Assembly: GCF_900107175.1 (NCBI RefSeq)
Contig: NZ_FNOZ01000003.1
Span: 62,001 to 126,000, forward strand
Length of the DNA stretch: 64,000 nucleotides
Direction: 5' to 3'
From: Modestobacter sp. DSM 44400
GTDB lineage: Bacteria > Actinomycetota > Actinomycetes > Mycobacteriales > Geodermatophilaceae
Shown here: positions 50,358 to 63,788 of the stretch, piece after piece
Position numbering within the stretch: position 1 is the stretch's first letter
Layout of the letters: each line of letters opens with the position of its first letter
Notes under the pieces: model-generated
Databases searched by the model: none
Told to the model about the DNA's origin: nothing
Seen by the model: the letters and a program-made list of their open reading frames with translations, nothing else
Made by a program: the position numbers and the translations under genes

Positions 50358-50393
50358 GTGCCCAGCACTCGCCTGCTCGTAGCGATCCGCTAG
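50358..50393 (+). CDS. ilvB leader peptide (leaderless)
   Basis: An 11-codon ORF encoding [11 protein letters not shown], with Leu-Leu-Val-Ala-Ile just before the stop. It starts where transcription should begin. The branched-chain codons fit the ribosome-stalling control sequence of a transcription attenuator for acetolactate synthase. A hairpin starts at the TAG stop, followed by an intrinsic terminator. Confidence 0.7.
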
Positions 50394-50453
50394 CGCGCCG
50401 GTCCTCCCGACCGACGCGCCGCCCCTCAGTGCCTCCGGCACGAGGGGTTTTTT
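50394..50453 (+). promoter_or_regulatory. ilvB transcription attenuator
   Basis: The first hairpin directly after the leader stop has the core GGTC-CTCCC-GACC (50400-50412) flanked by CGCG arms. The terminator is CCCCTC, bulged A, GTGCC, TCC loop, GGCAC, GAGGGG (50422-50447), then six T (50448-50453). The T run is exceptional for this GC-rich DNA. An antiterminator pairing was not resolved by eye. Confidence 0.7.
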
Positions 50454-50456
50454 GTT

Positions 50457-60938: not shown

Positions 60939-61961
60939 ATGCGCCTGGCAGTCGTCCCTGGAGACGGCATCGGTCCCGAGGTGGTGGCGGAGGGGCTCAA
61001 GGTCCTGAACGCGGTCGCCCCCGACATGGAGAGCACGCCCTACGACCTGGGTGCCGCCCGCTGGCAGCGCACCGGGGAGCTGCTCCCGGACTCGGTGCTG
61101 GACGAGCTGCGCCAGTACGACGCGATCCTGCTCGGTGCGGTCGGTGATCCCACCGTCCCGGCCGGCATCCTCGAGCGGGGGCTGCTGCTCAAGCTCCGCT
61201 TCGAGCTCGACCACCACGTCAACCTGCGGCCGGCCAAGCTCTACGACGGCGTCCGCAGCCCGCTGGCCGAGCCCGGCGAGATCGACATGCTCTGCATCCG
61301 CGAGGGCACCGAGGGCCCCTACGTGGGCAACGGCGGAGTGCTCCGCCGTGACACCCCGCACGAGGTGGCCACCGAGGTGAGCCTGAACACCGCCTTCGGC
61401 GTGGAGCGGGTGGTCCGCTACGGCTTCGAGCGCGCGGTCGCCCGGCCGCGCAAGCACCTGACGCTGATCCACAAGACCAACGTGCTCACCCACGCCGGGT
61501 CACTGTGGTCGCGAACGGTCGAGGAGGTGGCCGCCGAGTTCCCCGAGGTCACCGTCGCCTACTCGCACGTGGACGCCGCGTCGATGTTCTTCATCACCGA
61601 CCCGGGCCGCTACGACGTCATCGTCACCGACAACCTCTTCGGCGACATCATCACCGACGTGGCGGCCGCGGTCACCGGCGGCATCGGGCTGGCGGCCAGC
61701 GGCAACCTCGACGTCTCCGGCACGAACCCGTCGATGTTCGAGCCGGTGCACGGCTCGGCGCCCGACATCGCCGGTCAGGGCATCGCCGACCCGACGGCCA
61801 CCGTGCTGTCCGTGGCGCTGCTGCTGGAGCACCTGGGCCGGCCGGACCAGGCGCGGAAGGTCAACGCCGCAGTGGCCTTCGACCTGTCCACCCGCGACCC
61901 GAAGGGTCCGGTGCGCACCAGCGACGTGGGCGACCGGCTGGCGGCCCTCGCGGGCGGCTGA
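60939..61961 (+). CDS. leuB: 3-isopropylmalate dehydrogenase
   Basis: NAD-dependent oxidative decarboxylation of 3-isopropylmalate for leucine; it also serves the citramalate route to isoleucine through 3-methylmalate. The 340-aa protein opens [19 protein letters not shown] and has [65 protein letters not shown] and [13 protein letters not shown]. These match the short actinobacterial LeuB. It lies directly before cimA, whose product it may process. Confidence 0.95.
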
Positions 61962-61968
61962 GCGTTCC

Positions 61969-62000
61969 GCGCCGACCCGGGCGGCTCCCCGGGTCGGCGC
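61969..62000 (+). terminator. Terminator after leuB
   Basis: A perfect 13-bp stem (61969-61981 and 61988-62000) with a 6-nt loop, 8 nt past the stop. It separates leuB from the cimA attenuator. Confidence 0.7.
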
Positions 62001-62004
62001 GTGC

Positions 62005-62010
62005 TGTACT
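62005..62010 (+). promoter_or_regulatory. -10 box of cimA leader
   Basis: TGTACT 7 nt before the leader peptide ATG. It deviates from TAnnnT at position 2; TACTGG at 62007 is an alternative. No clear -35: the upstream DNA is the leuB terminator. Confidence 0.4.
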
Positions 62011-62017
62011 GGTCGCG

Positions 62018-62050
62018 ATGTACGCCACCGACACGATCATCATCACCTAG
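62018..62050 (+). CDS. cimA leader peptide with three Ile codons (leaderless)
   Basis: A 10-codon ORF encoding MYATDTIIIT, with three consecutive ATC codons two codons before the TAG stop. cimA makes isoleucine precursors, so Ile codons are what an attenuator for it would use. A perfect 10-bp hairpin starts on the last base of the stop codon, and an intrinsic terminator follows, all within 95 nt of the cimA start. Confidence 0.72.
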   Translation: MYATDTIIIT

Positions 62051-62103
62051 CGCGCAGTCCTCCCCGACTGCGCGCCGACCTCCCGTACCCCGGGGGGTCT
62101 TTT
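62050..62103 (+). promoter_or_regulatory. cimA transcription attenuator
   Basis: Hairpin 1 has arms 62050-62059 and 62066-62075 (perfect 10 bp, loop CTCCCC). The terminator is GACCTCCC (62077-62084), 7-nt loop, GGGGGGTC (62092-62099, one G-U), then TTTT (62100-62103). The loop of hairpin 1 with its flank (CCTCCCC) resembles the terminator 5' arm and could compete for its G-rich 3' arm; that is only a suggestion. Confidence 0.7.
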
Positions 62104-62144
62104 CGCGTTCAGGGCCTGCGCACACCTCATCCCCGGAGCGACCC

Positions 62145-63788
62145 GTGCCCACCGAGCTGGACTTCCACGTCTTCGACACCACGCTGCGCGACGGCGCGCA
62201 GCGGGAGGGTGTCAGCTACTCCGTCACCGACAAGCTGGCCGTCGCCCGGCTGCTGGACGAGATCGGTGTCGGGTTCATCGAGGGCGGCTGGCCGGGGGCG
62301 CTGCCCAAGGACACCGAGTTCTTCGCCCGGGCGCGCACCGAGCTGACGCTGCGGCACGCCCAGCTGGTCGCCTTCGGCGCCACCCGCAGGGCCGGCGTCC
62401 GGGTCGAGGACGACCCGCAGGTGAAGGCCCTGCTGGACGCCGGAACGCCGGTGATCTGCCTGGTCGCCAAGTCCGACGTCCGGCACGTGCGAGAGGCGCT
62501 GCGCACCACGGTGGCGGAGAACCTGGCGATGGTGGCCGACACCGTGGCCTTCCTGGTGGACCACGGACGCCGCGTCTTCCTCGACTGCGAGCACTTCTTC
62601 GACGGGTACGCCGCCGACCCCGACCACGGCGTTCAGGTGCTGCAGGCCGCCTTCGCCGCCGGCGCCGAGGTCGGCGTCCTCTGTGACACGAACGGCGGCA
62701 TGCTGCCGATGGGCGTCGGGCGCGTGGTGGCCGACGTGCGGGCCCGCACCACGGGCCGGCTGGGCATCCACTGCCAGGACGACACCGGCTGCGCGGTGGC
62801 CAACACGCTGGCCGCGGTGGAGGCCGGGGTCACCCATGTGCAGGGGACGGCGAACGGCTACGGAGAGCGCGCCGGCAATGCCGACACCTTCGCCCTGATC
62901 GGCAACCTGGTCACCAAGATGGGGCTGCCGGTGGTGCCGGCCGAGTGCCTGCCCGAGCTCAAGCGGGTCAGCCACGCCATCGCCGAGCTGGCCAACATCG
63001 CCCCCGACGACCACCAGCCCTTCGTCGGCGCGTCGGCGTTCGCGCACAAGGCCGGCCTGCATGCCAGCGCGATCAAGGTCAGCCCGGGGCTCTACAACCA
63101 CCTGGACCCGACGGTCGTGGGCAACGACATGCGCATCCTGGTCACCGAGATGGCCGGGCGCGCCTCGGTCGAGCTGAAGGGCCGGGAACTCGGGGTCGAC
63201 GTGACCGACCAGTCCGACGCGATCGGCCGGGTGGTCGACCGGGTGAAGGTGCTGGAGGCCGACGGCTGGTCCTTCGAGGCCGCCGACGCCTCCTTCGAGC
63301 TGCTGCTGCGCGCCGAGCTCCCCGGCGCGCCGGAGCCGCTGTTCGAGCTGGAGAGCTACCGCACGTCGGTCGAGCACTGGGGCAACGGGGTGGTGGTGAG
63401 CGAGGCGACGGTCAAGGTGCACCTCCCCAACGGCGACGGGACGGCGGAGCGGATCATCAGCACCGGCGAGGGCAACGGCCCGGTCAACGCTCTGGACAAC
63501 GCCCTGCGTCAGGCGCTGGTCGCCCGGTATCCCCACCTGGCCGGGGTCTCGCTGGCCGACTACAAGGTGCGCATCCTGGGCTGGAAGGGCGGCACCGGCG
63601 CCACCACCCGGGTGCTCGTCGACACCACCGACGGGGTGGGGGAGTGGACCACGGTCGGGGTGCACGCCAACATCGTCGAGGCGTCCTGGCACGCGCTGGT
63701 CGACGCGCTGACGTACGCCGTTCGTCACCGTGACACTGTCGGCCTTCGGCCGACACCGCGGCCGGGTGCTGTGCCCGAGGGGCGCTGA
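62145..63788 (+). CDS. cimA: (R)-citramalate synthase
   Basis: Condenses pyruvate with acetyl-CoA to citramalate, giving isoleucine without threonine. The 547-aa protein has the HMGL-like barrel (FDTTLRDGAQREGVSYS), GVLCDTNGGMLPMGV, VQGTANGYGERAGNADTF and AFAHKAGLHASAI, plus a C-terminal LeuA-type regulatory domain from about residue 400 that should sense isoleucine. This motif set matches the citramalate synthase branch rather than isopropylmalate synthase. The usual metal HxH is HCQ here (GIHCQDDTGCAVAN). The GTG start follows CGGAG. It lies downstream of an Ile-codon attenuator. Confidence 0.93.
   Translation: MPTELDFHVFDTTLRDGAQREGVSYSVTDKLAVARLLDEIGVGFIEGGWPGALPKDTEFFARARTELTLRHAQLVAFGATRRAGVRVEDDPQVKALLDAGTPVICLVAKSDVRHVREALRTTVAENLAMVADTVAFLVDHGRRVFLDCEHFFDGYAADPDHGVQVLQAAFAAGAEVGVLCDTNGGMLPMGVGRVVADVRARTTGRLGIHCQDDTGCAVANTLAAVEAGVTHVQGTANGYGERAGNADTFALIGNLVTKMGLPVVPAECLPELKRVSHAIAELANIAPDDHQPFVGASAFAHKAGLHASAIKVSPGLYNHLDPTVVGNDMRILVTEMAGRASVELKGRELGVDVTDQSDAIGRVVDRVKVLEADGWSFEAADASFELLLRAELPGAPEPLFELESYRTSVEHWGNGVVVSEATVKVHLPNGDGTAERIISTGEGNGPVNALDNALRQALVARYPHLAGVSLADYKVRILGWKGGTGATTRVLVDTTDGVGEWTTVGVHANIVEASWHALVDALTYAVRHRDTVGLRPTPRPGAVPEGR
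63737..63755 (+). terminator. Hairpin inside the end of cimA
   Basis: TGTCGGCC and GGCCGACA with a 3-nt loop, about 35 nt before the cimA stop. It is a possible coding-overlapping terminator, weakly supported. Confidence 0.3.

Follow-up and report, generated by a model that had tools for sequence, protein, structure and literature searches.

Predicted ribosome-mediated attenuation of citramalate synthase genes by a conserved isoleucine-codon leader in Actinomycetes

We analyzed a 64,000-nt stretch of the Modestobacter sp. DSM 44400 genome (hereafter, the window), in which the citramalate synthase gene cimA is preceded by a short leader. This leader is very probably a ribosome-mediated transcription attenuator that makes cimA expression dependent on charged tRNA-Ile. 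Since an isoleucine-rich leader peptide, a hairpin, and a terminator are conserved together, cimA would very probably be switched off when isoleucine is plentiful. Through citramalate synthase, pyruvate is committed to a threonine-independent route to isoleucine; citramalate itself is also a target of biotechnology. The leader locus and its gene consist of the following features.

62005..62010, + strand: −10-like hexamer TGTACT, ending 7 nt before the leader ATG
62018..62050, + strand: leader ORF MYATDTIIIT, 10 codons, ATG to TAG (read from the sequence; Ile-rich leader kept in relatives)
62036..62044, + strand: putative sensor codons ATC ATC ATC, the first beginning 14 nt 5′ of the base of hairpin 1
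62050..62075, + strand: hairpin 1, proposed antiterminator, 10 bp, arms GCGCGCAGTC / GACTGCGCGC (RNAfold, covariation)
62077..62103, + strand: intrinsic terminator, GACCTCCCG TACCC CGGGGGGTC followed by TTTT (RNAfold, conservation)
62027..62104, + strand: match of covariance model R1, spanning sensor codons, hairpin 1, and terminator (82.4 bits, E 1.3e-19)
62145..63788, + strand: cimA, citramalate synthase, GTG start (TIGR00977, 607 bits, cut-off 450)

The original prediction had described a 10-codon leader with three consecutive ATC codons 7 nt after a −10-like box and, ahead of cimA, a 10-bp hairpin that begins at the leader stop codon and a terminator with TTTT. The letters read as claimed (ATG TAC GCC ACC GAC ACG ATC ATC ATC ACC TAG, 62018–62050), RNAfold reproduced the hairpin and the terminator, and the TIGR00977 score confirmed the identity of the gene. 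Hairpin 1 opens with the G of the leader stop TAG and has the loop CTCCCC (62060–62065), and the terminator, one base further downstream, has a 9-bp stem (62077–62099 by RNAfold) followed by TTTT at 62100–62103. The folding of the leader hairpins was more stable than that of shuffled sequences (z = −3.54), with 0 of 200 shuffles equally stable. When the whole genome was searched, the R1 match at this leader scored 82.4 bits with an E of 1e-17. A comparison with Rfam, including T-box, riboswitches, and known leaders, returned no match at gathering score for the cimA leader.

The cimA start codon (GTG, 62145) is preceded by GGAGCG and lies ~95 nt downstream of the leader stop. Upstream, leuB ends at 61961, ~56 nt before the cimA leader. 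A perfect 12-bp inverted repeat without a U tract (61970–61999) directly follows leuB and overlaps the presumed −35 region of the leader promoter. The same genome also encodes a threonine ammonia-lyase that scored above the TIGR01127 cut-off, and therefore cimA is not the sole predicted isoleucine route, but probably one of two.

We gathered cimA genes from 80 genomes across Actinomycetota and compared their upstream regions. Where upstream sequence was available, most cimA genes were preceded by a short ORF containing tandem Ile codons, behind which came a hairpin and then a T-rich terminator. The leader peptides included MDATRTIIIS (Modestobacter), MHTTGTIIIA (Klenkia), MTHSVLIIGT (Actinoplanes), MTFSAVIIIAERVG (Actinophytocola), MPPQAIIIVRRAG (Thermobifida), and MLSFATIIGSRRAGPQ (Streptomyces). 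Nearly all of 73 distinct relatives had a −10-like box 5–7 nt ahead of the leader start, and its position suggests that the leader mRNA is itself leaderless. Thus, the upstream alignment in which the original prediction had expected conservation bore it out: relatives keep the Ile-rich mini-ORF, the promoter box near its start, a covarying hairpin, and the terminator.

Covariance model R1 (81 positions) was built from 47 copies of the cimA leader, and its matches at an E of 0.01 or better covered 248 of 395 Actinomycetes genomes and 86 of 122 genera. TIGR00977 (cimA) was present in 309 of the 395 genomes. When the two genome lists were compared by hand, 243 genomes had both, 66 had cimA only, 5 had the element only, and 81 had neither, although phylogenetic relatedness makes these counts non-independent and R1 itself derives from cimA leaders. 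Among the 66 genomes with cimA and no R1 match, 45 came from one family (f22) with genomes of 1.2–2.2 Mb, and 11 from another (f17) in which R1 matches are weak. The best 30 genome matches of R1 all had the cimA motif ~120–270 nt downstream. The attenuator was absent from loci where cimA closely follows leuB or overlaps the end of ilvE (L052, L055, L065, L076, L078, L080, L081, and L092). In small-genome Actinomycetes (L065, L078, L080, L081, and family f22), cimA overlaps or directly follows ilvE, with no attenuator. Of 115 Geodermatophilaceae genomes, 105 had a citramalate synthase gene. A chance origin of the element is excluded because it is conserved upstream of cimA throughout Actinomycetes.

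The structure was examined in 98 aligned copies, with an alignment that was fitted to the model and therefore leans towards it: 97.3% of the cells of hairpin 1 and the terminator were paired, 9 of the 15 pairs had changed on both sides, and double changes amounted to 170 cells as against 52.5 in shuffles. Hairpin 1 alone had changes on both sides in 7 of 10 pairs, and the covariation signal was lost when pairing partners were slid by 1–3 columns. In addition, RNAalifold recovered the identical two helices from an unfitted MAFFT alignment, with 8 pairs changed on both sides. The gap between hairpin 1 and the terminator was 0 nt in 78 of the 98 copies, 1 nt in 18, and 2 nt in 2, and the terminator with its U tract was kept in nearly all copies. 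In Geodermatophilaceae and most Micromonosporaceae, the leader stop codon coincides with the base of hairpin 1, and in Streptomyces, Thermobifida, and Pseudonocardiales it falls within the 5′ arm. Despite this variation, a ribosome located at the stop would melt hairpin 1 in every case.

Among the 98 copies, Ile occupied the codon 14 nt before the base of hairpin 1 in 71, that at 11 nt in 90, and that at 8 nt in 76. At least two of these three codons encoded Ile in 93 copies, and several of the others carried an additional nucleotide ahead of the hairpin. ATC and ATT are used interchangeably, a change that is synonymous in the leader frame only; the other two frames over the sensor codons read mostly Ser/Leu and His/Tyr.

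Because sensor codons would otherwise be built into the search, we made a codon-blind model (R2) of hairpin and terminator only and ran it on 59 genomes. It was trained on cimA, ilvB, leuS, and leuA members with no sensor codon, and ilvA-like leaders were not included; the genes behind its hits were identified with tblastn, using five references, and with hmmscan. R2 yielded 86 copies ahead of known genes, with fitting codons in nearly all. The 28 cimA copies had tandem Ile codons in nearly all cases, the exceptions being two split Ile codons (L191), one Ile (L209), and no listed leader (L199). The 33 ilvB copies had a Leu/Val core (LV/VV), and the single leuA copy read LLL. Most of the 20 leuS copies had a Leu-Leu core, although in four of them the Leu reading was the second candidate frame, and one (L256) had a single Leu. 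Four copies ahead of ilvA-like threonine ammonia-lyase genes, which score below NCBIfam equivalog cut-offs, read MAIT or MVIT. The scaffold, a GCGCG-type hairpin base ~14 nt after the first sensor codon with an abutting terminator, was present at cimA with an R2 score of 64 bits. The match between leader codons and pathway product, claimed originally for cimA, thus extended to sibling scaffolds, in which the codons change with the downstream gene. As the identity of the amino acid follows the target at a fixed position, this pattern is hard to explain without codon sensing, for which the tracking of codons with pathway is strong evidence.

One such sibling lies in the window, 12 kb upstream of the cimA leader.

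50358..50454, + strand: ilvB sibling attenuator (R1 37.6 bits, match at 50376–50454; R2 46.7 bits)

Its leader runs from GTG to TAG at 50358–50393 (11 residues), its hairpin starts at 50393 with arms GCGCGCCGGTC/GACCGACGCGC, its terminator ends in TTTTTT, and the gene that follows is ilvB by TIGR00118. A third copy in the same genome (L218, G000:C107:9819-9882) precedes leuS with the leader MTGGFLLLRPC. In family f17 (L246, L252, L258, and L270), the scaffold stands ahead of an ilvA-like threonine ammonia-lyase with leaders ending in M(A/V)IT, and the papers examined contained no description of ilvA-like leaders. In genus g67, second copies detected by R1 have Ile-rich leaders (MFTPRIII in L160 and MFALVIIM in L167) ahead of a small protein of ~100 aa, which has a sub-threshold Pfam match to an ACT domain.

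We propose that RNA polymerase would start at or next to the leader ATG and that its leaderless transcript would be loaded with a ribosome at the 5′ end. Under ample isoleucine, this ribosome would reach the stop codon and cover the 5′ arm of hairpin 1; with hairpin 1 melted, the terminator would form and transcription would end near 62103. When isoleucine is scarce, the ribosome would stall as the first Ile codon enters its A site. Its leading edge lies ~12–13 nt downstream of the first A-site base and would come to rest just short of hairpin 1. Hairpin 1, standing against the terminator, would then prevent its full closure, and the polymerase would read into cimA. Leaderless initiation, the response to isoleucine, and premature termination at the cimA leader are all predictions made from sequence.

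As hairpin 1 would stand under starvation and be melted under plenty, it would be the antiterminator, a role that we assign to it with modest confidence. It may act by steric or kinetic exclusion and not by shared base pairs, and the RNA exit channel may have no room for a standing hairpin so near to a closing terminator. Free-RNA folding formed both hairpins together, with a terminator probability of about 0.99 when hairpin 1 was available, and gave no thermodynamic switch. Hairpin 1 is conserved and abuts the terminator, and folding calculations show no competition for base pairs. No conserved base-paired antiterminator was detected in folds of ten divergent relatives with the 5′ edge set at each stall position, nor by terminator pair probabilities in the 98 copies. 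Competition between a C-rich loop and the terminator was seen in some lineages, Geodermatophilaceae included, but required masking of the 5′ arm. Hairpin 1 might also be extended at its base into the terminator (C-U of CUAG with A-G of AGACC), a pairing that we rejected because its C is not conserved. Tentatively, these leaders might form one modular family of attenuators in Actinomycetes. Exchange of two to three codons ~14 nt before a terminator-abutting hairpin would give the fixed RNA scaffold a new target, and the upstream hairpin, without base-pair competition, would prevent termination by steric blockage in the exit channel of the RNA polymerase.

The opposite role for hairpin 1 would be that of a protector (anti-antiterminator) of the classical trp type, which a stalled ribosome would disrupt so that the freed 3′ arm or loop pairs with the terminator and causes antitermination. 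The conservation of hairpin 1 and its position next to the terminator would suit this arrangement, as would the Geodermatophilaceae loop (ACCUCCCC), which can pair with the G run of the terminator, comparable to a proposal for Corynebacterium ilvB-II (PMC10272879). However, the base of hairpin 1 lies 14 nt away from the first Ile codon, beyond the reach of a ribosome that holds this codon in its A site; the loop complementarity is absent in Pseudonocardiales and several other lineages; and the alternative fold arises only with the 5′ arm covered, as by a ribosome that has arrived at the stop, the reverse of what this arrangement needs. We therefore regard a protector role as rather unlikely. 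Control might also operate via translation, RNA stability, or Rho-dependent termination, or the leader might mainly feed ribosomes to cimA by re-initiation, all of which we consider improbable. Results for S. coelicolor ilvB are ambivalent; codon changes in its leader were without effect, as cited in PMC1262725, which counts against codon attenuation. For Actinobacteria, leader genes have been suggested as sites of ribosome re-initiation (PMC4833913). Nevertheless, a canonical terminator with a U tract is present in nearly all copies, and ~95 nt between leader stop and cimA start is too far for the proposed 10–11 bp effect.

The nearby end of leuB, at 61961, raises the question of whether the terminator simply serves the leuB transcript and the mini-ORF is fortuitous. 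Conservation of the in-frame Ile codons, and of the start codon, across orders refutes this as the sole explanation; moreover, a promoter-like box directly precedes the leader, leuB has its own 12-bp inverted repeat, and the element stays with cimA elsewhere in the class, so that a leuB terminator is very improbable. Conservation of the leader structure would also be compatible with direct ligand sensing by a riboswitch or with a tRNA-binding T-box, but with no Rfam match and no conserved unpaired core, and with sensor codons that differ from one downstream gene to another on an unchanged RNA scaffold, we give this explanation hardly any weight.

If the attenuation reading is true, most Actinomycetes with cimA would share a conserved isoleucine-dependent control point that has not been listed before and that the deletion of a single terminator would remove. 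A common scaffold with gene-specific codons would make amino-acid specificity directly testable by codon exchange, and the cimA leader would be a clean system for studying how two abutting hairpins exclude each other in termination.

Tandem end-product codons in a leader peptide ahead of a terminator are familiar from the trp, ilv, and leu attenuators of E. coli, whereas the 2:3 antiterminator that competes with the terminator there was not detectable in the cimA leader folds. The mechanism is known, and cimA as its target appears not to have been reported before: we found no report of a cimA attenuator in the searchable open-access literature or Rfam, a scope that leaves priority less than certain. 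As a candidate attenuator, that of cimA is notable for its breadth and its clean codon-to-gene correspondence. Attenuators of ilvB, leuS, leuA, and trp genes are known in Actinobacteria (PMC1262725, PMC8079986, PMC10272879, and PMC11857589), and none of these papers, as far as examined, has cimA on its list. In the Streptomyces studies (PMC1262725, PMC8079986), the leuS MRAVRLLLSEPR and ilvB MRTRILVLGKRVG leaders are short and leaderless, and R2 found both. Corynebacterium ilvBNC and ilvB-II, as described in PMC11857589 and PMC10272879, resemble the cimA leader in having a leaderless leader rich in branched-chain amino acid codons, an adjacent antiterminator and terminator, and a U tract. In those accounts, however, a GCC trinucleotide is common to both Corynebacterium hairpins and a third hairpin is involved, whereas the cimA hairpins abut within 0–1 nt, with no conserved bases in common and no third hairpin seen. 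For C. glutamicum ilvBNC, PMC11857589 stresses both the overlap and the adjacency of antiterminator and terminator on mutational evidence. The logic proposed for cimA is also that of M. tuberculosis ilvB1NC (PMC13236596), in which a stalled ribosome allows the antiterminator and a ribosome at the stop masks it. In that experimentally tested system, induction was lost when the ilvB1 codons LVVI were replaced by AAAA, and deleting the terminator relieved the defect. R2 recovered an LVVI ilvB leader from a same-order genome (L254). Both systems have a uORF with regulatory codons and an intrinsic terminator with a U tract, whereas ilvB1NC uses Leu/Val/Ile codons and targets acetohydroxyacid synthase, and the cimA leader uses Ile codons only and targets citramalate synthase.
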